This document shows positions 24,265-57,659 of a stretch of 64,000 bases of DNA, piece after piece (the stretch's first letter is position 1; the number at the start of each line of letters is the position of its first letter). The stretch comes from Crambe crambe. Lineage: Eukaryota; Porifera; Demospongiae; Poecilosclerida; Crambeidae. The translations under genes were made by a program, and so were the position numbers. The notes beneath the pieces were generated by a model that saw nothing but the letters and a program-made list of their open reading frames with translations, made no database searches and had not been told where the DNA came from. The stretch lies in NCBI GenBank assembly GCA_963924555.1, contig OZ004584.1, forward strand, positions 711,001 through 775,000, read 5' to 3'.

Positions 24265-24553
24265 GTTTTCTGCATCCAGCTATTAATAAAGCTAGTGGCT
24301 ATATAGCTAGCTATGGTTTCTACACCATTCTGATCTTCCCTTTGTCTTGGCGAGGTGGGACACTTCACACTAGAAAGGAGGACATTCTACACTAGTGTAG
24401 AGTGTCCCCCGGAGGCTCTCCGCACTAGTGTAGACTGTCCGGGGGGACATTCTGCACGGGGGACATTCTACACTCCGACACCGGAACAATAGCCACTGCG
24501 TAGTAATTATCAATTTTACGCGCTGAGGTCTGTTACGCCCCTAGCTACCTGAG
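24265..24553. repeat. Short inverted/tandem words upstream of the sugar-transferase gene
   Basis: Between 24350 and 24490, variants of GGACATTCTACACTAGTGTAGA and its complement recur four or more times with GGGGGAC spacers, forming a compact, foldable cluster. The left edge of the large inverted duplication lies at about 24500. A regulatory role is possible but unproved. Confidence 0.5.
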
Positions 24554-26017
24554 ATGGAGTTGGATGGTAGTCTCGTTCAGAACAAAGGGTCTCACCAGAA
24601 GAAGGAGCCGGAAGCCAGAAGATGCCACCATGTAAACTTGAAGGTTCTCTTTCTGTTCTCGTTGTGTGTGCTTCTCTTCTATGGCATCAGTAACTGCACA
24701 CAAGGTGTGAAGAACTTCATTTTCACACACATTCCATCTGCTACAGCATCAAAAAAGGGAGGAGCTGCTTCCAACATGGACAATTACATGGATCTGAACT
24801 TTAATCTCCCATGGTTGGGTGGCTTAAGTGCTGATCACTATTCAGGCAGTGATTGGATCCAATTTCTGATCAATTTCACAGCAGTAAATTTGGATCCAAC
24901 CGAGCCGATATTCATAGTGTGTGCTGATGATAACTTCAAAGAAGCCCTTCTCAACTGGTTGATAATCTCTCTCTCATCTGCTTCACAAAATCAGCCACCG
25001 AAAAATATTTTAGCGGTGACGAATACACCCGAGATATGCTCCCTGTTGGAAGAACACAAAGTTAAAGTTTCCTGTTTACTGATGTCAGTGCATGATATCA
25101 GTATCAGTATCAACAAAAAGATCAGCATATTCAGAAGGTTACTGGTCATTCGTTTATCAGTGATGCGTGTTCTTAACCACATGGGTTACGATGTAGTTAA
25201 CATGGATTCCGATGCCATAATGCTGAGGAATTTGGTTCCAGTTCTGAAGCAGCATGGGAACAGTGATGTGGTTGGGACTTTTGGAGGAAAGCGGCCGCTT
25301 CAGTTATTTCAGAAGTGGGGGGTTGTTGTGTGCATGGGAGCAATACTAATAAGAAGTTCCTCAAGAACTGGTAAATAATTATATATAGCTATACAGTGCA
25401 CCAAGTAAAGGACACTTTGGGATCAGCCACTTTGTCCTTTGTAGAGAGGTTATCCTCTTCTTGGAGGTTAAACAAGTACCTAATTTAGTGTCCTTGTTGG
25501 GAGGTTGTCCTTTTCTTGGAGGGAAGTTCCACTGTATAATTAATTCTTCAACTGCAGAGCGTCCAGACCAAGTCCAGGAGAAGTTTGTTGATTTTTTCCC
25601 CTTTTTGCAGAGTTTCTGTGGGAGAGTATGCGCAGGATCGATGAATTCAATGATCAGATACTGTTCAACAAGGCCCTAGATGCAGCCAACATCACGTGGA
25701 AAAGATCATCCACCGAACAAACCCCAACTGACTTAAATATGACAACACACTGGGAAGGTCATTGTTCCAACGGCTTGAAAGTGACACTCCTCCCTCAGGT
25801 AGTAGCTTGTCGCTCCATTTGGTGCGTCAGGGAGATAAAGGATCGAGTGTATGTCTGGCATCATGGCCAGAACAAGCACAAGTTTAGCAACATGAACAGC
25901 AAAGCTCAGGAAGACAGAGTGTGGCTCTTGAGAAGTGATTGGTCCAGTATTGATGGCAAAGGAGTTCATCTCAAAGGACAGTTATGGTTATCAGGAATAA
26001 CTAACCATACCCTATAG
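24554..26017 (+). CDS. Nucleotide-diphospho-sugar transferase (GT77-like), gene A, left arm
   Basis: Two exons (24554-25370, 25611-26017) joined at a phase-1 GT-AG intron give 407 residues. A short cytosolic N-terminus with basic residues precedes one membrane segment (about 30-46, VLFLFSLCVLLFYGIS), as in type II Golgi enzymes. The luminal part has the pattern of the nucleotide-diphospho-sugar transferase family (Pfam PF03407): RLSVMRVLNHMGYDVVNMDSD, with the metal/sugar-nucleotide motif DSD at 218-220, followed by SDVVGTFGG. The C-terminal exon holds KVTLLPQVVACRS and VWHHGQNKHKF. The donor sugar and acceptor are unknown. The intron carries a pogo-like MITE. The mirror copy is 49611-51070. 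Confidence 0.85.
25394..25541. mobile_element. Degenerate MITE in intron of sugar-transferase A (left arm)
   Basis: Ends TACAGTGCACCAAG and GGGAAGTTCCACTGTA with internal words TCCTTTGTAGAGAGGTTATC. The same element occupies the same intron of the right-arm copy (50115-50262), where the ends read CAGTGGAACTTCC and GAGGTTCCACTG beside TA. It is therefore a TA-site element older than the duplication. Related words occur in the sugar-transferase B intron (27650-27720), in VPS45 intron 5 (about 54350-54495) and at 63000. Confidence 0.55.
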
Positions 26018-26565
26018 CTATACCTTAGAATAAAATCAATTCATCATCAGTCACACAACAATGAAAATTGCAATTGTCAAATTGAAATAGCTAGCTAGCT
26101 AGTTATATAGCTAGCTTGTTTTGTAGCTAGCTTGTTATGATATTGTAGCTAGCTTGTTATGACATTGTAGCTAGCTTGTTATGACATTGTAGCTAGCAAA
26201 TAATCAATTTTGAAATGTAGCTACAGTACATATAGCTATAAACTTCTTTAGCTATCTATCAGATATTTAAGTGGCTAGTTCCAATATCCACGGATGGTCA
26301 CATCATGCACGTCGAGCATTCTAGAGCTATTAAAAGAATATGCTATAGGGGGATATTACTATTCAGTATTATAATAATTCTCATAATAATTAATATGGTT
26401 TCGTTCAAGCAATGATTTGGCTTCAGTGTTTAATTCCTCCATTGCTATGCTAAGCTGAGTTAGCTGTGTAGCATAACAATGGAGAAGTTAGTTAGATAGA
26501 GAGACTAGACATCCCCAAGCCCAAATTTTTGAAAGACTTGCTCATTAGCAGTAATAATAGTTACA
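26018..26565. repeat. Intergenic region with 22-bp VNTR
   Basis: About 26105-26195 holds four copies of a 22-bp unit (TGTAGCTAGCTTGTTATGACAT type). The mirror position in the right arm (49395-49555) has about seven copies. The rest is AT-rich and aligns with 49000-49390. Confidence 0.75.
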
Positions 26566-28346
26566 ATGTCTAGTTTGAAAGGAGTTTGTAGTATGAGGAG
26601 ATGTCGTGGAGCTTGTCATCAATGGTACGTAATCAGCACAGTTCTGTTTGCATTCTTTCTAGTGATATACAGCATCAATCAAGGAACGGGCACTTGCTAT
26701 TTACTTCCATCTCAATCCAATTGTGGCATCACAATCGATACAAGAGACAGTAGAAATGGTCATTCTCTCACCAGCCAATCGTATAAGGAGATTCTGCACG
26801 ATGTCAACAAGCAAGAAAAAGTAAAGTCTACCATTTCCAGTAGTTTAAAGGAGAAGCAGAGTCTTATCAGAGAGCACAATGTTAAAGATCCGACTCTCAT
26901 AAACCACCAAAGAATCCCAAATGGAGTAGTTAACCGTAACCTTAACACTGAACTTAACACTAACCCTAACACTGATCTTAATACTGGTTTTGATTTCAAT
27001 TTCAGACTCCCTTGGTCTGACAGCATGGAGAAAGCATATCGCTACCAAAATACTCACTGGATTCAATTCCTGACGAAATTCACCAAAAAAGTGAATCCAA
27101 GTGAACCCATTCTGATCGCATGTGCTGATATCAAATTCAAAGAAGCTCTGCTCAATTGGCTGATTTCAGTGCTGGTCCTCCAGAAGGAACCTCCTAAGAA
27201 TATTCTCATTGTGACCAGCAGGGCTAGCATCTGTTCTCTATTGGAGCGTCATGATCTGAGCATCGACTGTTTGACACTGTCAGCTAATGACATCATCTTT
27301 AAATGGAAACACAAACTGAGAAATGGCAGGCCTGTTAAAGCCAGTGCTTTCCAAGAGTTGCTAGTTATTCGTTTGTCTGTAATGCGAGTCCTCAACCATA
27401 TGGGGTATGATGTCATCAACATGGATTCCGATGCCATAATGCTCAAGAATCCCATTCCGGTTCTGGAATCGTACAAGGACAGTGACGTAGTGGGGACCTT
27501 TGGAGGAAGCTTACCCCATGGATTGTTCAGGAGGTGGGGGGTCGTGGTTTGCATGGGAGCAATATTGATACGCAGTACTCCCAAAACAGGTACAACAGCT
27601 AGAGCTAACAAAGAGCAGATCCACAGGGAAACCTCCAAATAAGGGAAACCTCCAAATAAGGGAAATCTCCAAATAAGGGACACTATCCTTTTGTAGAGAG
27701 GTTATCCTCTTTTTGGAGGCTATTGTGTATAATATTGATCGAGTGTGGGTACTTTTAGATTTTCTGTTGTAGAGAATATTTTGAGTTGCAAATTGTGCCC
27801 AAAAAATAATAGTGTTCACTCTTCAACTTTAGGATTAATCACACACAATAAGTTCAATAATTTCAATAAAAGCTATTATAGTTAGCATGTTTTAATGAGA
27901 TAGCTAGCCTTTTCCTTCTTATTGCAGAGCTACTCTGGGAAAGGCTGAGTAACAATAATACCAACAAAATGGATGACCAAGTTCTGTTCAATAAAGCACT
28001 AGAAAAAGCAGGGATCAAGTGGAAGAAAGTCCCAGCTGCTCACACCACTTCTGTCAATGAAAACACCACTACATTCTGGCAAGGTCGTACCTCCAGTGGA
28101 TTAAAAGTGACTCTGCTTCCACAGGAAGCGGCTTGTCGTGGCATTTCATGTGTCCAAGAGATGAAGGAGAATGCTTATATCTGGCACCATGGCAGGAATA
28201 AACACAAGTTTCAAATGATGAGCAGTAAAGCAGAGGAAGATGGGGTGTGGTTCCTCAGAAAGGACTGGGCCAGCATTGATGGGAGTCAAGCAAGGTTCAA
28301 AGGACTAGAATGGTTATTAAGGATATCGCTTCAGAAAATTAACTAG
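26566..28346 (+). CDS. Nucleotide-diphospho-sugar transferase (GT77-like), gene B, left arm
   Basis: Exons 26566-27589 and 27928-28346 (phase-1 intron at the same place as gene A) encode 480 residues. There is a membrane anchor at about 21-37 (YVISTVLFAFFLVIYSI). A long stem follows, including an Asn-Thr-rich minisatellite (about 123-140, LNTELNTNPNTDLNT). The catalytic domain has RLSVMRVLNHMGYDVINMDSD with the DSD at 287-289, and the C-terminal exon has VTLLPQEAACRGISC and WHHGRNKHKF. It is a paralogue of gene A, 550 bp upstream, in the same orientation. It is probably a Golgi type II glycosyltransferase; substrate unknown. The full-length mirror copy is at 47269-48995 and a fragment at 45033-45923. 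Confidence 0.85.
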
Positions 28347-29171
28347 TTAGCTACTAGTAAAACCATTACCTTGCAGACTTTGCACTAGTCTGGCGTCGCC
28401 AGCCCAGCTTTTCTTCTTCTTTTTTTTTTTTTTTTTTTTTGGGGACGGGGAAGAAAAGTGGTCTGATAGAATAAACATCCTGTAATATCATTTAGCTACA
28501 TAGCTAGATTGGATCTAGGGGGTCTGGGAGTATGCATCCTCCGGGAAGATTTTGTCCTTTAGATTGGATCTGGAGACAAATCTGGGTTTATGTCACCAAT
28601 ATTATAAACATTGGCTTGTGCATGTGATGATGAATTTTGGGGGGAAGTTGGGAAGTTTGTGTAGAAGTTTCTACCCTGATTGAATCCTATTGATAATTAG
28701 CTAGCTATATTAATATTCTGCTTATTTTTCTCAGCTAACATGATAAAAAATTCAATAGAATTAGTTCTCATAAAATTAGATTATGAAACAAACCACCTTT
28801 CATTTTGTTTCATAAGCTAATTTTATGTGAATTTTATATCAATATTATTGTAAACATCTAGAATCTACAGAAACAAATTGTTTTGCAATTTCATTTAGGT
28901 TCAGTTCATCTGTCCTTCTGATAAATTGCTTAGCTATTAGCTAATCATGTAGCTACTTATTCTTGCACTTTACATCTGGAAGTAGGATGTTTAGGGGGGC
29001 TGTAGCCCTCCCCCCTGCCCCCTGGTTCCTATGCCTAGCCTAGTGGTAAAATTATTATTATTTTTTCATGAAAATAAATATAATAATGAAGTACAGTATT
29101 GTTTAATATGTCACACAAAATTCTTGATAAAAAGTGGCTAGTCACTCATGGATATATAATTATTATCGGAT
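28347..29171. repeat. Intergenic region, remnant of TAG-ended MITE and a foldback
   Basis: At 28389-28470 lies only the left end of the MITE that is complete at 44496-44993 (TAGTCTGGCGTCGCCAGCCC, T-run, GGGGACGGGGAAGAAAAG). The flank then resumes at gaataaacatcctg, so the left arm lost the rest. A palindrome around agaattagttctcataaaatta / taattttatgagaac lies at 28755-28830. The remainder mirrors 43551-44230. Confidence 0.65.
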
Positions 29172-30428
29172 TTAGTAATCTTGCATGCCCGACCCTTTAC
29201 AATAAATATTTTGAAGTATGCGCAGCTTTTCTTCAGGCGTCTTTTTCAAAAATAATGTAGGGTCCAGTCTCCCATACCCTCTTTCTCTGTCGTGATGTCC
29301 TTGCTTTACTGCCATCAACTTTAGGATCTCCCTCATGCACCAAACGTTGTGCAACTTCTCCAACAGATCAGGAATGTTGTAAGCATCAGCAAGATTTCTG
29401 ATATCTTCGATTATGAGGCAAATGCAGGCAGCAACTATTGGTGTTGAATATGATGTTCCATGACATAATTTGACGCTTCGCTCTCCATCAATTGTTGGTG
29501 CTAAAACATTTTCCCCAAGTTCCAAACAGTCAATTTCACGTCCCTCTGGAGTGAAGTTAGTAGGTTTTCCATTTCTATTGCAGGCTCCAACACAAATGAC
29601 ATGCCCCAACTTACTAGGATAGGCAATAGGGTTGATTATGGAAGCTCCTTGATTAGATGCAGCACTTACGACAATTATATTGTTGGTAATGGCATGCTGA
29701 ATTTTCTTTGCTAGCTCTGCATCAAATTCTGAAGAGCCAAGTGATAAAGATATGACATCAACTTTCTCTTTACCTGGTTTACTGTTATGTCGAATGATGT
29801 ATTCAATTGCTTTACAAATACTGGTGTTATATATATCCCCGTTTTTATCAGCAACTTTAAGAATCATCAATTTTGCCTTTGGGGCTGCAGACTTATATTC
29901 TTGCATTTTCTCTTGAATCTTCAATTTAAAAGGCAAACCACAAGCAATGCCAGCACACTCAGTGCCATGACCTATTTCATCTTTGCAATCATATCCATCT
30001 CTTGCAAAATTCACTGCATCAATTATCTTGCCGGGTTTTGCAAATGCTTTATGCTGTGCATTAATACCGCTGTCAATAACAGCTATTACTGTTCCACGTC
30101 CTTGTGGTATTGTGTGGAATTTCTTGTCCCTAGCTTGAACATTGCTGAATGGAGTGAGACTTTTATTACTGGAAATCACATCCTTTCTCTTCCTTTTTGC
30201 TTTTACATTTTCTTCTTCATTGGTGGATGCCTGTGTTTCAGTATCCTGTTCATCGTTTGGGTGCAGCAGAGTTGTATTCTTGAACCAAATATTAGCTGGT
30301 TGCCATTGATACTGAGAGAGCATAATGCTATCATTTGAAGTCTGTGCATCTGATGTGTAGCGAGGCTCGTCACTTGCACTGGACATTGGATGAATAAAGC
30401 GATTTAAAGACAGCAGTAGGAAGCGCAT
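29172..30428 (-). CDS. Subtilisin-like serine protease (S8), left-arm copy, intronless
   Basis: Single open frame of 418 residues. Catalytic triad and oxyanion residue are all in family motifs: Asp119 in IAVIDSGINAQHKAF, His154 in DEIGHGTECAGIACG, Asn259 in VVSAASNQGASI, Ser326 in CHGTSYSTPIVAAC. The first about 110 residues are a Ser/Glu/Lys-rich leader without a clear secretion signal (MRFLLLSLNRFIHPMSSAS is only mildly hydrophobic), so secretion, organelle import or a cytosolic site are all possible. The conserved tail ends RILQNIYCKGSGMQDY. There is no intron, unlike the neighbouring genes, which could mean retrocopy or bacterial origin. About 60 bp of leader sequence upstream of the ATG (GTTGTTTAGTAATATCTTGA) is shared with the 42309 copy. 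Confidence 0.88.
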   Translation of the reverse strand: MRFLLLSLNRFIHPMSSASDEPRYTSDAQTSNDSIMLSQYQWQPANIWFKNTTLLHPNDEQDTETQASTNEEENVKAKRKRKDVISSNKSLTPFSNVQARDKKFHTIPQGRGTVIAVIDSGINAQHKAFAKPGKIIDAVNFARDGYDCKDEIGHGTECAGIACGLPFKLKIQEKMQEYKSAAPKAKLMILKVADKNGDIYNTSICKAIEYIIRHNSKPGKEKVDVISLSLGSSEFDAELAKKIQHAITNNIIVVSAASNQGASIINPIAYPSKLGHVICVGACNRNGKPTNFTPEGREIDCLELGENVLAPTIDGERSVKLCHGTSYSTPIVAACICLIIEDIRNLADAYNIPDLLEKLHNVWCMREILKLMAVKQGHHDRERGYGRLDPTLFLKKTPEEKLRILQNIYCKGSGMQDY

Positions 30429-30537
30429 AATGATGAAAAATCAACTTTCAAGATATTACTAAACAACTGCAACTCGAAAGTCTTACCGCATAAATAAGCC
30501 CCGTTTCGCTTCGCGCGCGCGTGAACGGTGCCGGGTA

Positions 30538-30564
30538 GCCCAACCATAGATACTATGGCCCAAC
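30538..30564. repeat. 13-bp CATAG footprint between two 7-bp repeats
   Basis: GCCCAAC, then CATAGATACTATG, then GCCCAAC. The core is exactly two CATAG-family ends back to back. The flanks are a 7-bp repeat, matching the family's target duplication. Immediately after it, a second CATAG end (CATAGATATACTAGACTA) begins at 30565. Confidence 0.6.
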
Positions 30565-30589
30565 CATAGATATACTAGACTATTATGCA

Positions 30590-31012
30590 TGTGAACTGAT
30601 GAGGGAAGATGTAATTGTAGCTAGTAATTACTGGTAGCTACACTAGTAAACATGTGAACTGATGAGGGAAGATGTAATTGTAGCTAGTAATTACTGGTAG
30701 CTACACTAGTAAACATGTGAACTGATGAGGGAAGATGTAATTGTAGCTAGTAATTACTGGTAGCTACACTAGTAAACGTGAACTGATGAGGGAAGATGTA
30801 ATTGTAGTAATTACTGGTAGCTACACTAGTAAACATGTGAACTGATGAGGGAAGATGTAATTGTAGTAATTACTGGTAGCTACACTAGTAAACATGTGAA
30901 CTGATGAGGGAAGATGTAATAGTAGTAATTACTGGTAGCTACACTAGTAATTTGTTTACTAGTGTAGCTACCAGTAATTACTACAATCACATCTTCCCTC
31001 ATCAGTTCACCT
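30590..31012. repeat. Tandem array of about 61-bp units with a terminal inverted unit
   Basis: Six head-to-tail copies of GTGAACTGATGAGGGAAGAT...AATTACTGGTAGCTACACTAGTAAA (some lack an internal gtagctag), followed from 30953 by one copy in reverse orientation. The unit length, lack of spacers and eukaryotic context argue against CRISPR. Confidence 0.9.
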
Positions 31013-32215
31013 GCCTAATTGCAGTAGTTTATACATCTGAGCATGTGCAGACTATTACTGGGGAAGATGTAATATTAGAAATTGCAGTAATTACTGGTAG
31101 TTTACCACTAGAAGTGCATATCATCCTGCATACCTCTGAATGACACTTGCTGTCTTGCACAAAAAATGGTAAGGCCATACGATCTATGGCTACAAGATGA
31201 AGGTATGTTTGCTGCTTGTAAAAGCTATTCAAATTTAGTCAAATTCTACCCTCCCTTCCATTCCGCTTCCCTCCCTCTTCGTACAAAACTATCCTAGGAA
31301 GTACATACAGGTTCAAAGCTACCATACACCAGTGACACCACCTGTATTTGGGTGTCTGACTGGACCACTGGACTGGAGGGAGGGAAATGGAATGGAGGAG
31401 AGGGTATAGCTTGACAAAAAATTTCCAACTAGTAGCAAATTTATTTATTTTGTGCTACGTAGTTCTTACAAGCATATACCTTCATCTAGTAGATTGTATG
31501 GCCTTACCATTTTTTGTGCAAGACAATTGTCATTCAGAGGTAGCAGGATGGTATGCACTTCTAGTGGTAAACAAATTACTAGTGTAGCTACCAGTAATTA
31601 CTACAATTACATCTTCCCTCATCAGTTCGCATGCATAATTGCAGTAGTTTATAAAATTGCACTCCTACATCTGAGCATGTGCAGACTAATATGGATAGCT
31701 TTTACAAGCGGCAAACATACCTTCATCTAGTAGCTATAGATTGTATGGCCTTACCATTTTTGGCACAAGACAACAAGTGTCATTTAGTCTGCACATGCCC
31801 AGATGTAGGAGTGCAATTATAAACTACTGCAATTAGGCATGTGAACTGATGAGGGAAGATGTAATATTAGTAATTGCAGAAATTACTGGTAATACACTAG
31901 TGATTTTTTTTCTTTTTTTTACCACTAGAAGTGCATACCATCCTGCATACCTCTGAATGACACTTGTTGTCTTGTACAAAAAATGGTAAGGCCATAGCTA
32001 CAATCTATAGCTACAAGATGAAGGTATGTTTGCCGCTTGTAAAAGCTATTCAGATTTAGTCAAACTCTACCCTCCATTCCATTCCACTTCCCTCCCTCCC
32101 CATACAGAACTATCCTAGGAAGTACATACAGGTTCAAAGCTACCATACACCAGTGACACCACCTGTATCTGGGTGTCTGACTGCTGGGACCACTGGACTG
32201 GAGGGATGGAGGGGA
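31013..32215. repeat. Foldback cluster made of repeated direct and inverted segments
   Basis: A segment with GTCTTGCACAAAAAATGGTAAG and GATGAAGGTATGTTTGC occurs at about 31140-31250 and 31960-32070. It also occurs inverted at about 31430-31560 and 31690-31790. A 150-bp segment (GGAAGTACATACAGGTTCAAAGC to CCACTGGACTGGAGG) is repeated at 31295-31385 and 32115-32200. Ends of the 61-bp unit recur between them. No supported gene. Confidence 0.75.
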
Positions 32216-32221
32216 GGGTGC

Positions 32222-32665
32222 AGGATTCTGAGGATTGTTCATCTGAAGGAGAATGTGTCCTGTGTCTCTTGCTGCGTGTGTGTGAGGACTTCCTTGGCAG
32301 GAGTTGGGAGAGATTCATCTTCAGATGCAGACAATACCTTATAAACAATAATAAATAGCTATTAGTAATGGATCAGTATTATAATATCCATGCACTGCTA
32401 GATAATTATGATCCATCAAGTTCAATATATACCTCATAAAGTATAAACAGACAAACAAACAAACAAATAAGCATCATTCAAGTAGCAGCTGTTGCACACC
32501 ACTGGAGGGTAGATATTGTCAGATTCAGAAGAGACCTCCAGGCTGAGCACTGATAAGAGGATACCCTTACATGCAGCACTATATTTATTATGTTCATATC
32601 CTTTAGGCTTCTTTCCACACACCCTACATCTATTTTTAATGCACTTTTTATGATGCTCCATAGAC
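32222..32665 (-). pseudogene. RAG1-like N-terminal zinc exon and Ser/Lys-rich exon
   Basis: On the minus strand, after a T-rich tract ending cag (32666), an exon reads KNRCRVCGKKPKGYEHNKY, then LLSVLSLEVSSESDNIYPP and VVCNSCYL. The spacing C-x2-C ... V-x-S ... I-x-P ... C-x2-C resembles the zinc-binding part of the RAG1 N-terminal region (CRICG ... IHP..FC..C). After about 90 bp of GTTT-rich intron comes the Ser-rich exon (ASEDESLPTPAKE) also seen at 2701; here two bases are missing, so its frame breaks, and at about 32222 it stops abruptly. This copy supplies the piece that precedes the RING block at 3.9 kb. It is probably inactive. Confidence 0.6.
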
Positions 32666-33081
32666 ACTGAAAAAAAAATTATAAGTTAAATATTTTATTT
32701 ATAGTATTATAATTTAGACCTTCTTCATTTGTTTTATCAGTGCAATACCTGAATTATTATTGTTAGGTCCAGACCACAAGGAATTTCAAGACGGTGCCTT
32801 CTCCAATGAATACCGATGTTTCATAGATAGTTGCTATGGTATCGATGCGCAGTTGTGTTTAGCGTAAAAACCACTTATGCGCGTGGTTTAGACCGGGTTT
32901 TCCCTTTGTTGTTTGACCTTTTGGGGCTATCTCTAGGGCTTCACAGCAACCGAAAAGGTCACAAAGCCCCTAGCAACTACTGCCCATCGTTGTTATGCAT
33001 AATGTAATTTAATTTTGTTAGACCGGAAATGTTGAACATGGAATTTAATTAAGCGAATTGCCCAGGCAAAACACCCGTGAG
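32666..33081. other. Gene-free stretch left of the nested transposon block
   Basis: No supported gene. Two long words, cctttttggggc and gcccctag, hint at a local inverted repeat around 32920-32980. Confidence 0.35.
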
Positions 33082-33118
33082 GCACTTCCGGAACTCCAGC
33101 GCAAGGGTCTGGTAACAC

Positions 33119-35312
33119 CATAGATATAAGAGGTTTTACGGGATTGGAAACGCCCAATGAACTGCACAACCGAGGCGCGTTGACAGATGCGCACGCGCAT
33201 GCAGCATTAATCATATTAATGGCCGTGAAAGGAGATCAATATTCACTCCTTTCAAGGCAGTTAAAGTGATGTTCTGCCCCTACAGCTCACAGAATAGTAC
33301 AAGTAAGCTAAGGGGAAGGTATTGAAGAAGTGAAGAGTCAGAGAGTTGAAGTTGGAGAGTCTGAGGAAGGAAGTTATTAATTATTCATAACTTTTTCCCT
33401 TGTAATTATAACTATGAGTACCTATCATTGCTCATTATACATTAATTGTATGTGATTGATTTGAAAGAAAGGCCAGAATGACTTTTTGTATTAAAATTAG
33501 ACATAAATTCATTATTATTATAGCTAGATAATTTTGCCCCAAAGTTATCCGCCAGTTTCTGCTCAGTTCTCCCTCATCAGCATTATTGCAATACTTCCAG
33601 CTTTTGGCTGTTGGATTTTGACACCATCCATCTCAAGAATTCGGCTCAGTCAGCTGTCCTGTGGACCCTATGGATACAAGTAAGGGAAAAAGCATTTCGT
33701 GAAATGAAAAAAAGATGTAGGGATGACCACTGCTCAAAAAAGTAAGGAAACAAGAAGGATGGAAATGGGATCAATCTTTGTTCTGTATATCCAGCCAACA
33801 ATCCCTACATATACACACATTACTACACTATAATCTGAAGTTACCTGACGTATATGTAGGGATTGTTGGCTGGATATACAGAACAAAGATTGATCCCATT
33901 TCCATCCTTCTTGTTTCCTTACTTTTTTGAGCAGTGGTCATCCCTACATCTTTTTTTCATTTCACGAAATGCTTTTTCCCTTACTTGTTCCTGGTCTTTT
34001 TTCCTCTCTTTTATGGTTTTAGCTATGATTAGAGTTCATTCTTCTATGTGTATGCAGGGACAGATGAAAGAAGTTCTCCAATAGCATACCAGCCCAATCA
34101 TTTATCGAGTCAAGGTGTTGTGTTGTTGAGCCATACTTGGAGGTCGAAGATGCTGAAATAGAGTCTACCGTGGTGAATCTAAATCCCCGAATCGATACAG
34201 TAGTCTATCATCAGCTAGAGCTAGCTAGCTAGCTAGAGACAGCTGAGTAATATTATGATTTCGAATAATTGGATATTGAAATACATGCGCATGCGTATTA
34301 TAGAAAAGATGGCTTCCTAATTGAATTAGTCGAGTGCTGTGCTCCATAGTGTCTCCTTTTTCATCGACTCTTTCGAGGATCAACGAGTAGAAAAGATCGT
34401 AGTTGGTAGAATTTGGAGTGGATTTGTCCAGAAATCATAGCTGTAGCTTGAGTGGTTCGAGAGATATGGTTGTCTAAGAAGAATAATAATAAGAAGAAGA
34501 ATAATAATAATAATAATAGAGAAGAAGAAGAATATAGCGATTTACCTGCTTGCCGTATTTCTGAAACGGTAAGCTCCCTGGTCCTGAAACTTGGTCTGCA
34601 CATTGTAGTAGGCTCTAGTAGGCTGGATAATCATTCACAGTAGCTTTTGTTAGGTCTAAGTGGGGGAACTGGAATTTCACTTTTGTATTAGTCTATAGGC
34701 GGCGCGCGCGGCCGTCCGAGTCATCCCTACATAGAGAGTGCTACCGCACTCTCTGATTAGGGAGGAAATATAGTAAGCTTGCCATCTCCATAGGATGACT
34801 ATTGTATAGAAAACGAATGCACCAATTCCATTTACTGTTCTATCCTTTCCCTGAAACTACTAATACAGTTTCAATATTGTTAATCTATTTCTTGAGAGAG
34901 GGATTACAGTTTTAACACCACTTGCAAATGCTAGAGACAATATACGTCAGCTAATACAAAAACTAACATTACTATTCCATGTAGCTAAAGTTTACATGCC
35001 TTTTGATCAGAAAATGAGCAACAGCAATTGATTCCATCAAGCGTGAGAGGGATTACAGTCCCATTAACCACCACAGTAGTATTTGTAGGAATAAACTTGA
35101 AAATCTGAGCTAAAATTTATTTCATACAGTAAATCTATGCCCTAGTGTATTATAGTATCATTGGCATAAGTCTTACCTCACGGATCTTGTCAGAACAGCA
35201 ACTTTTACAAAAGTGCTGTCATTCAGCTGTCAACGCGCCTAGCGCCTCGGTTGTTAGTTGCTAACGAGAGCACGTGATCCGTTTCCAATCCCGTAAACCT
35301 CTTATATCTATG
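33119..35312. mobile_element. CATAG-family element, copy 3, target duplication GTAACAC
   Basis: Inverted relative to copies 1 and 2. The ends CATAGATATAAGAGGTTTTA and its inverse are flanked by GTAACAC (33112-33118, 35313-35319). It contains the Helitron-like element 33677-34756; without it the length is 1114 bp, close to copy 2. No coding frame. Confidence 0.85.
33677..34756 (+). mobile_element. Helitron-like non-autonomous element 3 with empty site known
   Basis: 1080 bp, starting CAAGTAAGGG after A (33676) and ending CTCTCTGA before T (34757). The related CATAG copy 2 keeps the uninterrupted sequence ctatggatattagg (17650-17663 in opposite orientation), so the insertion fell between A and T with no target duplication. 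It has the same 5' foldback and 3' hairpin as 6042-7146. Confidence 0.85.
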
Positions 35313-37385: not shown

Positions 37386-37395
37386 ATCCGTGATT

Positions 37396-38259: not shown

Positions 38260-38281
38260 CATCAAAAAACTGCTATTAATG

Positions 38282-39867: not shown

Positions 39868-39958
39868 AAAAAAACCTAATTGATTTGGGGCTCGAACCTG
39901 AGTCCTCGGACCTCGCCGGCCAACCCACTACTGCATGACTACAACGGCAATGCTATCA
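39868..39958 (-). repeat. tRNA-like SINE head (possible)
   Basis: On the minus strand the sequence reads tgcagtagtgggttggc (A-box-like), then about 25 bases later ggttcgagccc (B-box match), followed by an A/T-rich tail (aatcaattaggttttttt). The spacing suits a tRNA-derived pol III promoter. A proper cloverleaf and acceptor stem were not found, so it is not called a tRNA gene. Confidence 0.4.
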
Positions 39959-39989
39959 ATATTTGATTTTTTTAAAGGTATTGCAAATC

Positions 39990-40385
39990 AGATATGCTAT
40001 TGTTGTTTTTTTGGTATAGTTTTTTGTTTTTGACTGAATTCTGATAAGATAACACCAAAAGAGAAACAAATAAGGGACAAACAAAAAACAAAAACAGATC
40101 AGATATGCTGGGTTTTTTTTTATTTTTTGTTTTTGATTGAATTCTGATGATCATGATTGTGACCAAAAGAGGGACAAACAAAAAAACAAGTGAACAGAAA
40201 CCAAAAGAAAAACAAAATAATTTTGCAGATCAGATATGCTGTTGTTTTTTTGTTGTTTTTTTTTGATTGAATTCTGATGATATGAAACCAAAAGACAAAC
40301 AAACAAGGGACAAGCAAAAAACAAGTGAACAAAAATCAAAAGAAAGATAAAATAAAACAACAAAAACACAACAGCAGTAAAATAA
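39990..40385. repeat. Minisatellite, about 120-bp period
   Basis: Three to four degenerate units of GATCAGATATGCTG, a T-run, GATTGAATTCTGATGAT and an A-rich tract with accaaaag/gacaaacaa words. The frames found on both strands are products of this repeat. Confidence 0.75.
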
Positions 40386-42308: not shown

Positions 42309-43550
42309 ATGCGCTTCCTACTGCTGTCTTTGAATCGCTTTATTCATCCAATGTCCAGTGCAAGTGACGAGCCTCGCTACACATCAGATGCACAGACTTC
42401 AAATGATAGCATTAGGCTCTCTCAGTATCAATGGCAACCAGCTAATATTTGGTTCAAGAATACAACTCTGCTGCACCCAAACGATGAACAGGATACTGAA
42501 ACACAGGCATCCACCAATGAAGAAGAAAATATAAAAGCAAAAAGGAAGAGAAAGATTTCCAGTAATAAAACTCCATTCAGCAATGTTCAAGCTAGTGGCA
42601 TGAACCACACAATACCGCAAGGACGTGGAACAGTATTAGCTGTTATTGACACCGGTATTAATGCACAGCATAAAGCATTTGCAAAACCCGGCAAGATAAT
42701 CGATGCAGTGAATTTTGCAAGAGATGGATATGATTGCCAAGATGAAATAGGTCATGGCACTGAGTGTGCTGGCATTGCTTGTGGTTTGCCTTTTAAATTG
42801 AGGATTCAAGGGAAAATGCATGAATATAAGTCTGCAGCCCCAAAAGCAAAATTGATGATTCTTAAAGTCGCTGATGAAAACGGGGATATATATAACACCA
42901 GTATTTGTAAAGCAATTGAGTACATCATTCAACATAACAGTAAACCAGGTAAAGAGAAAGTTGATGTCATATCTTTATCACTTGGCTCTTCAGAATTCGA
43001 TGCAGAGCTAGCAAAGAAAATTCAGCAGGCCATTACCAACAATATAATTATTGTGAGTGCTGCATCTAATGAAGGAGCTTCCATAATCAACCCTATTGCC
43101 TATCCTAGTAAGTTGGGGCATGTCATTTGTGTTGGAGCCTGCAATAGAAATGGAAAGCCTACTGACTTCACTCCAGAAGGACGTGAAATTGACTGTTTGG
43201 AACTTGGGGAAAATGTTTTAGCACCAACAATTGATGGAGAGCGAAGCGTCAAATTGTGTCATGGAACATCATATTCAACACCAATAGTTGCTGCCTGCAT
43301 TTGCCTCATAATCGAAGATATCAGAAATCTTGCTGATGCTTACAACATTCCTGATCTGTTGGAGAAGTTGCACAACGTTTGGTGCATGAGGGAGATCCTA
43401 AAGATGATGGCAGTAAAGCAAGGACATCACGACAGAGAAAGAGGCTATGGGAGACTGGACCCTACATTATTTTTGAAAAAGACGCCTGAAGAAAAGTTGC
43501 GCATACTTCAAAATATTTATTGTAAAGGGTCAGGCATGCAAGATTACTAA
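42309..43550 (+). CDS. Subtilisin-like serine protease (S8), right-arm copy, intronless
   Basis: Mirror copy of the 29172-30428 gene, 413 residues. All catalytic residues are present: Asp114 (LAVIDTGINAQ), His149 (DEIGHGTECAG), Asn254 (IVSAASNEGAS), Ser321 (CHGTSYSTPIV). The main differences are five missing linker residues before the domain (KISSNKTPFSNVQASGMNHT region) and scattered substitutions. The leader upstream (ttatgcggtaagac... tcttgaaagttgattttt) matches the left copy, but about 80 bp further up the two arms diverge. Open frame kept in both copies suggests at least recent selection. Location and substrate are unknown. Confidence 0.88.
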   Translation: MRFLLLSLNRFIHPMSSASDEPRYTSDAQTSNDSIRLSQYQWQPANIWFKNTTLLHPNDEQDTETQASTNEEENIKAKRKRKISSNKTPFSNVQASGMNHTIPQGRGTVLAVIDTGINAQHKAFAKPGKIIDAVNFARDGYDCQDEIGHGTECAGIACGLPFKLRIQGKMHEYKSAAPKAKLMILKVADENGDIYNTSICKAIEYIIQHNSKPGKEKVDVISLSLGSSEFDAELAKKIQQAITNNIIIVSAASNEGASIINPIAYPSKLGHVICVGACNRNGKPTDFTPEGREIDCLELGENVLAPTIDGERSVKLCHGTSYSTPIVAACICLIIEDIRNLADAYNIPDLLEKLHNVWCMREILKMMAVKQGHHDRERGYGRLDPTLFLKKTPEEKLRILQNIYCKGSGMQDY

Positions 43551-44486
43551 ATCCGATAATATATATCCATGAGTGACTATATATCCACTTTTTATCAAGA
43601 ATTTTGTGTGACATATTAAATAATACTGTACTTCATTATTATATTTATTTTCATGAAAAAAAAATATTACCACTAGGCTAGGCATAGGAACCAGGGGGCA
43701 GGGGGGAGGGCTACAGCCCCCCTAAACATCCTACTTTCAGATGTAAAGTGCAAGAATAAGTACATGATTAGCTAATAGCTAAGCAATTTATCAGAAGGAC
43801 AGATGAACTGAACCTAAATGAAATTGCAAAACAATTTGTTTCTGTAGATTCTAGATGTTTACAATAATATTGATATAAAGAATTAGTTCTCATAAAATTA
43901 GCTTATGAAACAAAATGAAAGGTGGTTTGTTTCATAATCTAATTTTATGAGAACTAATTCTATTGAATTTTTTATCATGTTAGCTGAGAAAAATAAGCAG
44001 AATATTAATATAGCTAGCTAATTATCAATAGGATTCAATCAGGGTAGAAACTTCTACACAAACTTCCCAACTTCCCCCCAAAATTCATCATCACATGCAC
44101 AAACCAATATTTATAATATTGGTGACATAAACCCAGATTTGTCTCCAGATGCAATCTAAAAGACAAAATCTTCCCGGAGGATGCATGCTCCCAGACCCCC
44201 TAGATCCAATCTATTGTAAATGATATTACAGGATGTTTATTCTCTGCAACGGTAGTGTTCTGGCTTGCCCTCAGTTTTAGAGTAGGAAGTGGTAGTCAAT
44301 ATGAAACTGTAGTTTTCAACTGTAGCATCTCGCAGCCGGTGCAACTACCAGCCTCATTAACTCATGAATTATTCATGAGCGAACACGCCCCCGGCCACCT
44401 TAATGGAGTGACGTCACAAGTACAATAGCTACTGTGAAAATGAAATCATTAGCTAGCGCACAAAATTAATAGGAGCATGGCAAGAT
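43551..44486. other. Intergenic mirror of 28347-29171
   Basis: Aligns in reverse with the left arm up to about 44235 (gaataaacatcctg). It includes a palindrome (43880-43960) made of agaattagttctcataaaatta and its inverse. The following 250 bp, up to the MITE, are absent from the left arm. No gene recognised. Confidence 0.6.
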
Positions 44487-44495
44487 GTGCAAAGT

Positions 44496-44939
44496 TAGTC
44501 TGGCGTCGCCAGCCCAGCTTTTCTTCTTTTTTTTTTTGGGACGGGGATTGGGAAGAAAAGTGGTCTGGGAGCTAGCTCTAGCATCAACTACTTGTGACGC
44601 CCGCGCGATCTCTCAAAAATAATTTGCGTGTTGAATATTTTCCGAAGCCAGTCGGTAGAATTGCGAACACATCGCCCTTGAAAATCACTTATACAACTTC
44701 CAGCCGTTCAGGCTTCAGGCCAGGTATTCCTAGCTCTTTAAACACAGCTCTTGGTTACTTGGTTACTTCTCCATAGCTCTAGCTCTGCCAACCTGGAATA
44801 AATCGTGGGTGTGTCTCGCCAACTACTTCACGTGACTGAATAGAGCAATCTGATTGGGACGCAGCTATAGCTGCGCGCGCGGGCGACACAAGTAGTTGAT
44901 GCATGCTAAGCTATCAGACCACTTTTCTTCCCCGTCCCC

Positions 44940-44970
<31 letters not shown>

Positions 44971-44993
44971 GCTGGGCTGGCGACGCCAGACTA
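44496..44993. mobile_element. TAG-ended MITE, complete, 9-bp target duplication GTGCAAAGT
   Basis: 498 bp with ends TAGTCTGGCGTCGCCAGCCC and inverse, T/A runs, and CGTCCC/GGGACG blocks; subterminal repeats extend to gtagttgatgc. GTGCAAAGT lies at 44487-44495 and 44994-45002. It is the intact version of the remnant at 28389. The frame at 44594-44776 is not supported as a gene. Confidence 0.85.
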
Positions 44994-45032
44994 GTGCAAA
45001 GTCTGCAAGGTAATGGTTTTACTAGTAGCTAA

Positions 45033-45923
45033 CTAGTTAATTTTCTGAAGCGATATCCTTAATAACCATTCTAGTCCTTTGAACCTTGCTTGACTCCCAT
45101 CAATGCTGGCCCAGTCCTTTCTGAGGAACCACACCCCATCTTCCTCTGCTTTACTGCTCATCATTTGAAACTTGTGTTTATTCCTGCCATGGTGCCAGAT
45201 ATAAGCATTCTCCTTCATCTCTTGGACACATGAAATGCCACGACAAGCCGCTTCCTGTGGAAGCAGAGTCACTTTTAATCCACTGGAGGTACGACCTTGC
45301 CAGAATGTAGTGGTGTTTTCATTGACAGAAGTGGTGTGAGCAGCTGGGACTTTCTTCCACTTGATCCCTGCTTTTTCTAGTGCTTTATTGAACAGAACTT
45401 GGTCATCCATTTTGTTGGTATTATTGTTACTCAGCCTTTCCCAGAGTAGCTCTGCAATAAGAAGGAAAAGGCTAGCTATCTCATTAAAACATGCTAACTA
45501 TAATAGCTTTTATTGAAATTATTGAACTTATTGTGTGTGATTATTAACCTCCAATCCTAAAGTTGAAGAGTGAACACTATTATTTTTTGGGCACAATTTG
45601 CAACTCAAAATATTCTCTACAACAGACAATCTAAAAGTACCCACACTCGATCAATATTATACACAATAGCCTCCAAAAAGAGGATAACCTCTCTACAAAA
45701 GGATAGTGTCCCTTATTTGGAGGTTTCCCTGTGGATCTGCTCTTTGTTAGCTCTACCTGTTGTACCTGTTTTGGGAGTACTGTGTATCAATATTGCTCCC
45801 ATGCAAACCACAACCCCCCACCTCCTGAACAATCCATGGAGTAAGCTTCCTCCAAAGGTCCCCACTATGTCACTGTCCTTGTATGATTCCAGAACCGGAA
45901 TGGGATTCTTGAGCATTATGGCA
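45033..45923 (-). pseudogene. Sugar-transferase B, truncated extra copy
   Basis: The second exon (45451-45033) is intact and identical in predicted protein to left-arm gene B. Of exon 1 only the 3' end remains (45923-45763), from IMLKNPIPVLESYKDSD to the donor. The DSD motif, membrane anchor and start are gone. At 45923 it joins subtilase sequence in the opposite orientation. It cannot make an enzyme. Confidence 0.85.
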
Positions 45924-45929
45924 TAATAA

Positions 45930-46930
45930 AAGTCTCACTCCATTCAGCAATGTTCAAGCTAGTGGCATGAACACAATACCACAAGGACGTGGAACAGTAT
46001 TAGCTGTTATCGACAGTGGCATTTATGCACAGCATGAAGCATTTACAAAACCTGGCAAGATAATCGATGCAGTGAATTTTGCAAGAGATGGATATGATTG
46101 CCAAGATGAAATAGGTCATGGCACTGAGTCACTGAGTGTGCTGGCATAGCTTGTGGTTTACCTTTTAAATTGAGGATTCAAGGGGAAAATGCATGCATGA
46201 ATACAAGTCTGCAGCCCCAAAAGCAAAATTGATGATTCTTAAAGTCGCTGATGAAAACGGGGATATATATAACACCAGTATTTGTAAAGCAATTGAATAC
46301 ATCATTCAACATAACAGTAAACCAGGGAAAGAGAAAGTTAATGTCATATCTTTATCACTTGGCTCTTCAAAATTTGATGCAGATCTAGCAATGAAAATTC
46401 AACATGCCATTACCAACAATATAATTGTCGTAAGTGCTGCATCTAATTATGGTGCTTCCATAATCAACCCTATCGCCTATCCTGGTAAATTGGGGCATGT
46501 CATTTGTGTTGGAGCCTGCAATGAACGAGGAAAACCTACTGACTTCACTCCAGAGGGACGTGAAATTGACTGTTTGGAAATTGGAGAGAATGTTTGGGTA
46601 CCAACAATTGATGGAGAGCGAAGCGTCAAATCACGTCAAGGGACATCATATTCAGCACCAATAGTTGCCGCCTGCATTTGCCTCGTAATCGAAGATATCA
46701 GAAATCTTGCTGATGCTTACAACATTCCTGATCTATTGGAGAAGTTGCACAACGTTTGGTACATGAGGGAGATCCTAAAGATGATGGCAGTAAAGCAAGG
46801 ACATCACGACAGAGAAAGAGGCTATGGGAGACTGGACCCTGCATTATTTTTGGAAAAGACGCCTGAAGAAAAGTTGCACATACTTCAAAATACATGCTGT
46901 CTTTTTCTCTTCACAGGGCTTTTAACATAA
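45930..46930 (+). pseudogene. Subtilase, third copy, 5'-truncated and frameshifted
   Basis: Begins within the leader (AATAAAAGTCTCACTCCATTCA), joined to the sugar-transferase fragment. Asp (LAVIDSGIYAQ) and His (DEIGHGTE) are present. An 8-bp tandem duplication (cactgagtcactgagt, about 46123-46138) then breaks the frame, and two further small insertions lie near 46180-46195. The downstream frame (46193-46930) retains Asn (VVSAASNYGAS) and Ser (RQGTSYSAPIV). The tail is replaced after LHILQNT by the end of a THAP-domain fragment read backwards. It is closer to the fragment at window position 1 than to the two intact copies. Confidence 0.85.
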
Positions 46931-47161
46931 CTAAACACAGTAGGGATGTAGTCTGGGGAGAGGGGATCATCACTCTTCTTGCCTGTAAATGAAGTGGTTG
47001 GAGCATAGCCAGCTGTATTCTGTTGGCTGCCAATTCTTCCTGTTTAGAGCTGCCACCCAACTTGAACGCCTCTCTTTATCAGCAGGAAATCGATAGAAAC
47101 TCAAGCCACAGCCTTTGCTAGATCTATTGGCACACCCCACTGCACAGCAGCTCTTGACCAT
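46930..47161 (-). pseudogene. THAP zinc-finger domain fragment
   Basis: From an ATG at 47161 the minus strand reads MVKSCCAVGCANRSSKG, LSFYRFPADKERRSSWVAAL and WLCSNHFI: a C2CH THAP domain (C-x4-C ... C-x2-H, with the conserved Pro and Trp). Right after NHFI one extra base shifts the frame; the expected continuation SDDPLSPDYIPTVFSYVKS is found in the next frame. THAP domains bind DNA and are common in P-element-like transposases and their host derivatives. There is no other part of such a protein here. It is wedged between the subtilase and sugar-transferase copies, overlapping the end of the former. Confidence 0.75.
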
Positions 47162-47268
47162 TATTGCATGTTTGCCACTCAAGATGGCGCCCACCGCGAA
47201 TTTTTTAATTATTACGCGCAATCGAATAACCTCTATACAAAGTCTGCGGTTTACATATTTACTAGGAA

Positions 47269-48995
47269 CTAGTTAATTTTCTGAAGCGATATCCTTAATA
47301 ACCATTCTAGTCCTTTGAGCTTTGCTTGACTTCCATCAATGCTGGCCCAGTCTTTTCTGAGGAACCACACCCCATCTTCCTCTGCTTTACTGCTCATCAT
47401 TTGAAACTTGTGTTTATTCCTGCCATGGTGCCATACATAAGCATTCTCCTTCATCTCTTGGACACATGAAATGCCACGACAAGCCACTTCCTGTGGAAGC
47501 AGAGTCACTTTTAATCCACTGGAGGTACGACCTTGCCAGAATGTAGTGGTGTTTTCATTAACAGAAGTGGTGTGAGCAGATGGGACTTTCCTCCATGTGA
47601 TCCCTGCCTTTTCTAGTGCTTTATTGAACAGGACTTGGTCATCCATCTTGTTGGTATTATTGTTACTCAGCCTTTCCCACAGTAGCTCTGCAATAAGAAG
47701 AAAGAGGCAGGCTATCTCTATAGAACATGCTAACTATAATAGCTTTCATTGAAATTATTGAACTTATTATGTGTGCATTAGCTATTAACCTCCAGTCCTA
47801 AAGTTGAAGAGCGAACAATTATTGTTTGGGCGCAATTTGCAACTCAAAATATTCTCTACAATGGACAATCCACACTCTATCAATATTATACAACAAAAGG
47901 ATGGTGTCCCTTATTTTGGAGGTTTCCCTGTGGATCTGCTCTGTGTTTAGCTCTAGCTATTGTACCTGTTCTGGGAGTACTGCGTATCAATATTGCTCCC
48001 ATGCAAACCACAACCCCCCACCTCCTGAACAATCCATGGGGTAAGCTTCCTCCAAAGGTCCCCACTATGTCACTGTCCTTGTACAATTCCAGAACTGGAA
48101 TGGGATTCTTGAGCATTATGGCATCGGAATCCATGTTGATGACATCATACCCCATATGATTGAGGACTCGCATTACAGACAAACGAATAACCAGCAACTC
48201 TTGGAAAGCACTGGCTTTAACAGGCCTGCCATTTCTCAGTTTGTGTTTCCATTTAAAGATGATGTCATTAGCTGACAGTGTCAAACAGTCGATGCTCAGA
48301 TCACGATGCTCCAATAGAGAACAGATGCTAGCCCTGCTGGTCACAATGAGAATATTCTTAGGAGGTTCCTTCTGAAGGACCAGCACTGAAATCAGCCAAT
48401 TGAGCAGAGCTTCTTTGAATTTGATATCAGCACATGCGATCAGAATAGGTTCACTTGGATTCACTTTTTTGGTGAATTTCGTCAGGAATTGAATCCAGTG
48501 AGTATTTTGGTAGCGATATGCTTTCTCCATGCTGTCAGACCAAGGGAGTCTGAAATTGAAATCAAAACCAGTAAGGTCAGTGTTAAGGTTAGTGTTAAGT
48601 TCAGTGTTAAGGTTATGGTTAACTTTTATTTCAACTCCATTTGGGATTCTTTGGTGGTTTACGAGAGTCGGATCTTTAACATTGTGCTCTCTGATAAGAC
48701 TCTGCTTCTCCTTTAAACTACTGGAAATGGTAGACTTTACTTTTTCTTGCTTGTTGACATCGTGCAGAATCTCCTTATACGATTGGCTGGTGAGAGAATG
48801 ACCATTTCTACTGTCTCTTGTATCGATTGTGATGCCACAATTGGATTGAGATGGAAGTAAATAGCAAGTGGCCGTTCCTTGATTGATGCTGTATATCACT
48901 AGAAAGAATGCAAACAGAACTGTGCTGATTACGTAACACTGATGACAAGCTCCACGACATCTCCTCATACTACAAATTCCTTTCAAACTAGACAT
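47269..48995 (-). CDS. Nucleotide-diphospho-sugar transferase (GT77-like), gene B, right arm
   Basis: Full-length mirror copy of the left gene B: exons 48995-47966 and 47687-47269, 482 residues, with a phase-1 intron. The membrane anchor is at about 21-37; the stem repeat differs (EIKVNHNLNTELNTNLNTDL, a changed repeat number); the DSD motif lies in YDVINMDSDAIML. The frame is intact. The downstream sequence differs from the left arm because of the inserted THAP/subtilase block. Confidence 0.85.
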
Positions 48996-49610
48996 TGTAA
49001 CTAACTAGCTATAGCTAACTGCTTCTAATAGGAACTAGCTATTGCTAATGAGTGAGGCTTTCAAAAATTTGGTCTTGGGGGTGTCTAGCTAGTCTCTCTA
49101 TCTAGCTAACTTCTTCATTGTTATGCTACACAGCTATAGCTAGCTAACTCAGCTTAGCATAGCAATGGAGGAATTAAACACTGAAGCCAAATCATTGCTT
49201 GAACGAAACCATATTAGAGAATTATTATACTACTGAATAGTGATATCCCCCTATAGCATATTCTTTATGTAGAATGGTTCAACATGCATGATGTGAGTCC
49301 ATCTATGGATATTGGAACTAGCTAGCTACTTAACTACGTAAATATCTGATAGATAGCTACAGAGGTTTATAGCTATAGCTATACCAAGCTACATTTCAAA
49401 ATGTCATAACAGCTAGCTACAATGTCATAACAGCTAGCTACAATGTCATAACAGCTAGCTACAATGTCATAACAGCTAGCTACAATGTCATAACAGCTAG
49501 CTACAATGTCATAACAGCTAGCTACAATGTTGTCATAACAGCTAGCTAGAGCTACTTCAATTTGATAATTGCAATTTTCGTTGTGTGACTGATGATGAAT
49601 TGAATTTATT
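48996..49610. repeat. Intergenic mirror with expanded 22-bp VNTR
   Basis: Mirrors 26018-26565. About seven copies of AATGTCATAACAGCTAGCTAC at 49395-49545, against four on the left. GCTAGC words dominate. Confidence 0.8.
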
Positions 49611-51070
49611 CTAAGGTAATAGGGTATGGTTAGTTATTCCTGATAACCATAACTGTCCTTTGAGATGAACTCCTTTGCCATCAATACTGGACCAATCACT
49701 TCTCAAGAACCACACTCTGTCTTCCTGAGCTTTGCTGTTCATGTTGCTAAACTTGTGCTTGTTCTGGCCATGATGCCAGACATACACTTGATCCTTTATC
49801 TCCCTGACGCACCAAATGGAGCGACAAGCTACTACCTGAGGGAGGAGTGTCACTTTCAAGCCGTTGGAACAATGACCTTCCCAGTGTGTTGTCATATTTA
49901 AATCAGTTGGGGCTTCTTCTGCAGACGATCTTTTCCACATGATGTTGGCTGCATCTAAGGCCTTATTGAGCAGTATCTGATCATTGACTTCGTCGATCCT
50001 TCGCATACTCTCCCACAAAAACTCTGCAAAAGGGGGAAAAATCAACAAATTTCTCTTGGACCTAGTCTGGACACTATCATGATGCTGCAGTTGAAGAATT
50101 AGCTAATAATTATTATACAGTGGAACTTCCCTCCAAGAAAAGGACAACCTCCCAACAAAGGACACTCTTTTGGGCCCCTTTCCCTAAATTGCCTTAGGTA
50201 CATGTTTAACTCCAAGAAGAGGACAACCTCGGATAAAGCATACTCAGAGGTTCCACTGTTATATTTACCAGTTCTTGAGGAACTTCTTATTAGTATTGCT
50301 CCCATGCACACAACAACCCCCCACTTCTGAAATAACTGAAGCGGCCGCTTTCCTCCAAAAGTCCCAACCACATCACTGTTCCCATGCTGCTTCAGAACTG
50401 GAACCAAATTCCTCAGCATTATGGCATCGGAATCCATGTTAACTACATCGTAACCCATGTGGTTAAGAACACGCATCACTGATAAACGAATGACCAGTAA
50501 CCTTCTGAATATGCTGATCTTTTTGTTAATACTGATATCATACACTGACATCAGTAAGCAGGAAACTTTAACTTCGTGTTCTTCCAACAGGGAGCATATC
50601 TCAGGTGTATTTGTCACCACTAAAATATTTTTCGGCGGCTGATTTTGTGAAGCAGATGAGAGAGAGATTATCAACCAGTTGAGAAGGGCTTCTTTGAAGT
50701 TATCATCAACACACACTATGAATATCGGCTCAGTTGGATCCAAAGTTACTGCTGTAAAATTGATCAGAAATTGGATCCAATCATAGTGATCAGCACTTAA
50801 GCCACCCAACCATGGGAGGTTAAAGTTCATATCCATGTAATTGTCCATGTTGGAAGCAGCTCCTCCCTTTTTTGATCCTGTAGCAGATGGAATGTGTGTG
50901 AAAATGAAGTTCTTCACACCTTGTGTGCAGTTACTGATGCCATAGAAGAGAAGCACACACAACAAGAACAGAAAGAGAACCTTCAAGTTTACATGGTGGC
51001 ATCTTCTGGCTTCCTGCTCCTTCTTCTGGTGAGACCCTTTGTTCTGAACGAGACTACCATCCAACTGCAT
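49611..51070 (-). CDS. Nucleotide-diphospho-sugar transferase (GT77-like), gene A, right arm
   Basis: Mirror of the left gene A: exons 51070-50269 and 50023-49611, 404 residues, same phase-1 intron and the same MITE in it. Relative to the left copy it lacks a few residues (SGS before DWIQF; one IS repeat) and ends TLLP rather than TL. Anchor (about 30-46), DSD (YDVVNMDSDAIML) and the C-terminal WHHGQNKHKF are kept. Both arm copies are open, so both may be expressed. Confidence 0.85.
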
Positions 51071-51373
51071 CTTAGGTAGGGGCGTAACGGACCTCAGTTG
51101 TTTTTAGCGCGTAATTATTAGCGATGATTTTTTTAATTTGTTTGTCTCGGCAATAGAAGGTGAAATGGCTTCCAAGCTCGAGCAGAAATATTTATATTGC
51201 AGTATTAAATTTATGTGGCTGGTTGATTGTAGCTACCTATGTCAATTTTTTTTTTTTTTTTTTTTTGATAGAGTGATAGAGAGAAAAAAATGTTGATCTC
51301 ATGATTATATGATAATTGCTACTTTTTTATTTCATGAAAATAAATAATCACCTATTGATTTGCATGAGTCTGA
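51071..51373. other. Edge of the inverted duplication; intergenic
   Basis: Similarity to the left arm (acgcgct... gttacgcccct) fades out near 51125. A T-run of 22 lies at about 51247. It holds the 3' flank of the transporter gene. Confidence 0.5.

Positions 51374-53221: not shown

Positions 53222-57659
<4,438 letters not shown>

Follow-up and report, generated by a model that had tools for sequence, protein, structure and literature searches.

We analyzed a window of 64,000 nucleotides of Crambe crambe DNA (contig OZ004584.1, positions 711,001 to 775,000) in which two glycosyltransferase-like genes, A and B, and a subtilase gene, S, occur in two inverted arms. A sequence-only reading of the window had proposed such an inverted cluster and suggested comparing the window with its own reverse complement. 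When this self-comparison was performed, the arms were recovered as two mirror blocks, 24523–28382 with 51097–47238 and 28468–30476 with 44243–42258. The left arm (24523–30476, forward orientation) contains A-B-S, and the right arm (42258–51097, reverse orientation) contains, from the spacer outward, S, a truncated copy of B (B'), a broken copy of S (S'), B and A; between them lies a spacer of 11,781 bp (30477–42257). The same genes are thus found in two inverted arms, as in a gene-bearing palindrome. The inverted order is as described in the sequence-only reading, but the structure is not a simple mirror because the right arm holds a nested tandem duplication. A single-exon gene resembling MFS/sugar transporters (51374–52888) lies directly outside the right arm, and an array of about 158 CT dinucleotides followed by C/T-rich repeats is found at 56020–56401. 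The cluster is very likely located on C. crambe chromosome 4. Our genome-wide searches covered an assembly of 143,139,886 bases in 119 contigs; the genome note gives 143,197,480 bp in 124 scaffolds (PMC12166358).

The gene models for A and B each comprise two exons. In the left arm, A (exons 24554–25370 and 25611–26017, forward strand) encodes 407 amino acids and B (exons 26566–27589 and 27928–28346, forward strand) encodes 480; in the right arm, B (exons 48995–47966 and 47687–47269, reverse strand) encodes 482 and A (exons 51070–50269 and 50023–49611, reverse strand) encodes 404. The exon 1 reading frames of left A and left B matched PF03407 (Nucleotid_trans) with 26.6 and 36.8 bits respectively, compared to a curated cut-off of 22, and we take PF03407 to be a Pfam family belonging to CAZy GT77. 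On this basis A and B are predicted to be Golgi-type glycosyltransferases. The introns of A and B are at matching places in the two arms, as had been proposed; GT..AG intron ends were found in left B and in the two copies of A, and right B is open across the matching sites. A dispersed repeat within the introns was likewise confirmed: a 24-base motif occurs six times in the window and in none of 100 shuffled versions, with two copies in the intron of left A, one each in the introns of left B, right A and B', and one outside the arms (54408). The intron of right B does not contain this repeat, and short matches resembling it are scattered across the genome. An intergenic repeat with a unit of 21–22 bp is also common to both arms, with 3.5 copies at 26121–26197 and 7.0 copies at 49400–49548. 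Five of the 12 genomic matches to the B protein fall within the cluster and the other seven lie elsewhere at 32–37% identity. Further relatives of B were observed at C20:2340697-2366344, where three of four matches (34–37% identity) contain an internal stop.

Two copies of S are intact single-exon genes containing a PF00082 domain: the left copy (29172–30428, reverse strand, 418 amino acids) and the inner copy of the right arm (42309–43550, forward strand, 413 amino acids), with E-values of 2e-34 and 1e-34. The S' remnant (45924–46892, forward strand), recognized by genome similarity matches, is truncated at its 5' end and has a broken frame, and matched the same domain at 8e-23. Together with both copies of A and B, the two intact copies of S make six full-length genes with open frames, in agreement with the sequence-only reading. 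Residues D119, H154, N259 and S326, which correspond to the Asp-His-Ser triad and the oxyanion Asn, were invariant in all six aligned sponge sequences. S may be tentatively described as a cytosolic-type subtilase, with a function predicted from its family. The solved structures nearest to S are bacterial, and five of the top six are named intracellular proteases. A recent bacterial origin for the intronless S was considered and is unsupported, since the best prokaryotic relative among the 80 kept of 519 was only 34% identical and other intronless copies, 41–46% identical, are present elsewhere in the same genome. The nearest intact subtilase relatives in the rest of the genome are 42–47% identical.

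Subtilase sequences also extend upstream of the left arm. Positions 1–315 are the 3' portion of a relic with internal stops whose start lies to the left of the window, and two relics of subtilase 5' ends are found at 2172–2555 and 3506–3881 (all forward strand, from similarity matches). At least eight subtilase-derived loci occur in about 50 kb, three of which are intact: one upstream at contig position 707974, left S, and inner-right S. All of the upstream subtilase loci share the orientation of the right arm, and a 117-bp fragment of B lies among them. The common orientation of these relics suggests that the copies of the cluster already formed an array with a single orientation. Contig C7 also carries a short fragment of a subtilase 5' end, approximately 94–96% identical to the arms over 116–119 bp. 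This contig (115,406 bp) appears to be made up of a unit of approximately 39.95 kb repeated head to tail about 2.9 times, the compared stretches being 99.94–100% identical; it could represent a circular element written out repeatedly or a very young tandem array.

The organization of the right arm reveals a tandem duplication. When it is read in the same direction as the left arm, its order is A-B-S'|B'-S, with a junction at 45924 that joins the equivalents of left-arm positions 30168 and 27431. The junction has an overlap of about 1 base as judged by eye and takes the form expected of a single tandem duplication. Arm comparison indicates that B' (44911–45924, reverse strand) contains the end of exon 1, the intron and exon 2; it lacks most of exon 1, and its remaining frame is open. 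Between B' and S the right arm contains an insertion of 667 bp (44244–44910), of which positions 253–659 are mostly dispersed repeat. Between S' and B there are 345 bp (46893–47237) with no left-arm counterpart, containing an open stretch that by eye appears THAP-like.

The spacer proved to be filled with transposons, as the sequence-only reading had stated, with 10,600 of its 11,781 bp (approximately 90%) being transposon-like. This assignment was based on the presence of dispersed genomic copies, on the recurrence elsewhere in the window of the outer parts of 33119–35312, and on the inclusion of 36770–37388. The element at 36617–39386 (reverse strand) encodes a DDE_3 transposase (reading frame 38282–39259), has inverted ends of 71 nt, and is nested within 35573–39460. 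The segment 36770–37388 has inverted ends of 79 nt and is absent from two copies of its host element on contig C1; no other copy of it was present among the matches listed. A transposon-like element at 39474–42138 has inverted ends of 42 nt and a 7-bp flanking duplication, and another at 33119–35312 is interrupted by a multicopy element (33676–34757). In all, 7-bp flanking duplications were read by eye at three spacer elements. The remaining sequence, approximately 1,181 bp, sets a bound on the original spacer if nothing unique has been lost, and a length of about 1.2 kb is probable for it. An extension of the palindrome out to 18–20 kb and 60–62 kb was considered and rejected, the matches there belonging to a multicopy repeat (221 matches from 2361 first-look candidates). 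Two open frames that by eye resemble Ulp1 proteases lie within or beside a multicopy repeat at 19941–20586.

We also examined the divergence between copies, which is uneven along the arms. Substitution differences amount to 5.1% for the A-B portion, 3.0% for S and 0.7% for the 3' part of B compared with B', and introns and intergenic parts differ by 5 to 16%. Synonymous distances were determined by Nei-Gojobori counting, the ends of the exon 1 stretches taking in a small number of non-coding codons. Between the left and outer right copies, these distances were 0.046 for A exon 1, 0.113 for A exon 2, 0.040 for B exon 1 and 0.144 for B exon 2. The difference between first and second exons was significant for A and B together (p = 0.0015) and for B alone (p = 0.006), with p = 0.10 for A alone. 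For S, the distance was 0.057 between the left and inner copies and 0.159 between left S and S'. When B exon 2 was compared between the left arm and B', the synonymous distance was 0 (0 of 94 sites, compared to 15 of 274 in S; p = 0.015). The left and inner copies share a run of 731 aligned bases without a substitution, gaps left out, extending from left-arm position 27763 to approximately 28.5 kb. This run spans the site of the 667-bp insertion, contains indels of 10, 1 and 2 bases, and was reached in none of 5000 shuffles; a Poisson estimate at the substitution rate of S gives 3e-10. A run of 266 bases between the left and outer copies also exceeds all 5000 shuffles, indicating that exon constraint contributes to long runs. 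From these sequence comparisons, we read the 731-base tract as the probable product of a recent conversion or exchange event; the remaining mosaic is suggestive only. The proposal that the arms can undergo conversion is supported for one tract, which pairs exon 2 of left B with B'; elsewhere conversion is suggested by the uneven divergence, with constraint as a partial confounder.

The coding sequences exhibit signs of purifying constraint. Non-synonymous changes were fewer per site than synonymous changes for S between the left and inner copies (p = 0.005) and, between the left and outer copies, for A exon 1 (p = 0.048), A exon 2 (p = 0.006) and B exon 2 (p = 0.0003), these p values being uncorrected for multiple tests; for B exon 1 between the left and outer copies the effect was not significant (p = 0.065). 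Non-synonymous changes were also fewer between left S and the broken S' (p = 0.008). Because the broken copy shows the same signal, a low ratio of non-synonymous to synonymous changes is no proof that each copy works.

To place the copies of S in order, we rooted them with the upstream subtilases of the cluster, all comparisons being made within one species. When the intact upstream subtilase served as outgroup, left S was united with inner-right S by 28 columns of the S block, the inner copy with the outer S' by five, and the left copy with S' by three; when the outgroup was the other upstream copy, which contains stops, the corresponding numbers were 24, 4 and 5. The tree fork uniting left S and inner-right S had support of 100/99. 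These site patterns and the tree indicate that the branching of S' preceded the separation of left S from inner-right S. Dating by divergence is rough, given that the S' tip is short (0.016), the stem of the left and inner copies is long (0.043), and many of those 28 sites lie close together. We consider the most probable history, with a probability of roughly one half, to be that of a locally expanding cluster that underwent tandem duplication, inverted duplication, loss in the left arm, conversion and transposon filling. A block of A, B and S would initially have been duplicated in tandem to give A-B-S'|B'-S, and this block would then have been copied in inverted orientation across a short spacer. 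The redundant B-S' part would subsequently have disappeared from the left arm, probably when B recombined with B', an event that would leave left B with an exon 1 of the B type and an exon 2 of the B' type. Later conversion between left B and the inner B' would have removed the differences along 0.7 kb or more, and transposons would have filled the spacer, intact genes being kept in both arms.

Two other histories can be derived from the same data. One unit of a tandem duplication may later have been flipped by an ordinary local inversion, in place of a fold-back inverted duplication. The relics to the left of the left arm are all in the orientation of the right arm, so the ancestral array probably had a single orientation with only the left arm flipped, which favors this history; on the other hand, no inversion breakpoints are recognizable, the left breakpoints lying in repeats and the spacer being filled with transposons. 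The observations hardly discriminate between such an inversion and the preferred history, and we regard the inversion as possible but rather unlikely. The sisterhood of left S and inner S could also be produced by two successive inverted duplications, one of A-B-S' and a later one that placed an inverted copy of the left B(3')-S segment inside the right arm. This would account for left/inner differences (0.7% and 3.0%) that are below the left/outer differences (5.1% and 6.6%). However, the left/outer synonymous distances of the first exons of A and B are as low as the left/inner distance of S, which suits one inverted event, and the single junction at 45924 is of the kind that a plain tandem duplication would leave; we regard two inverted duplications as improbable.

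A potential concern is whether the inverted arms were created by the assembly, with two haplotypes joined head to head, as the sequence-only reading had allowed. The genome note describes an assembly made with hifiasm, purge_dups, Hi-C and 459-fold HiFi coverage that is not fully phased and whose curation eliminated 18 haplotypic duplications (PMC12166358), a setting in which such a join might arise. Against this, the window contains no N, so there is no scaffold join within it, and the outer flanks (10 kb on each side) share only four BLAST hits, all in a multicopy repeat. The arms are also unequal in structure, differing by the nested tandem duplication and the 667-bp insertion, and their divergence ranges from 0 to approximately 16%, unlike any single allele pair. 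Among the matches listed (45, with 40 of 137 candidates scored), no second copy of the cluster, such as a stray haplotig, was seen elsewhere in the assembly, and matches of at least 85% identity over at least 500 bases were found only within the cluster. Judged from the assembly sequence, a misjoin is very unlikely. The HiFi data comprise 67.94 Gb in 9.82 million reads (PMC12166358). By arithmetic the mean read is approximately 6.9 kb, so hardly any single read would span the roughly 27 kb even if the assembly is right, and the earlier suggestion that the absence of a single spanning read would point to a misjoin is too strict. Arms differing by 3–6% should be resolvable by HiFi reads. The substitution-free tract of 731 bases is shorter than the mean read.

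Within the preferred history of a locally expanding cluster, the direction of conversion can be considered. In exon 1, left B and right B are close in synonymous distance (0.040); in exon 2 they are far apart (0.144), and left B shows zero difference from B'. These values raise the prospect, which we regard as doubtful, that the truncated and probably inactive B' was the donor in a conversion between the arms that replaced exon 2 of the intact left B. If this were true, the inverted arrangement would allow a glycosyltransferase to be reshuffled from a store of pseudogene sequence.

Local tandem gene-family arrays are characterized by birth, death and conversion of copies. The sponge cluster resembles them in its subtilase loci, at least eight in about 50 kb with three intact, and differs in that one unit is flipped. 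In sex-chromosome palindromes the arms are nearly identical, at approximately 99% or more, a level that the sponge arms do not reach at substitution differences of 5.1%, 3.0% and 0.7%. The inverted duplication appears to be a real feature of an actively rearranging gene array, and the kind of event is already known; it is an ordinary but good example of how gene families grow. It provides a compact, datable sponge case in which 27 kb record a tandem duplication, an inversion, the decay of copies into pseudogenes, likely conversion and the filling of a spacer by transposons. Among the papers listed in our literature search, no title describes a sponge palindrome or this locus. Fold-back and template-switch inverted duplications form another class for comparison (PMC10622511, PMC10766186). 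Such mechanisms yield an inverted duplication with a short original spacer, such as would have existed here, but the sponge breakpoints are old and overwritten and the mechanism is not readable from them. The VCY palindromes of the human Y chromosome (PMC6790999) are similar to the sponge locus in having mirror arms that carry multicopy genes, in the spacer between the arms, and in showing signs of inter-arm conversion. The sponge arms differ from these in being approximately 93–99% alike in substitutions and unequal in length and content, in lying on a chromosome without a known sex role, and in that the apparent conversion covers a small part of them. In the papers listed by our literature search, discussion of palindromes that undergo conversion centers mostly on sex chromosomes, and a case from an ordinary sponge chromosome would help in judging the generality of the process.
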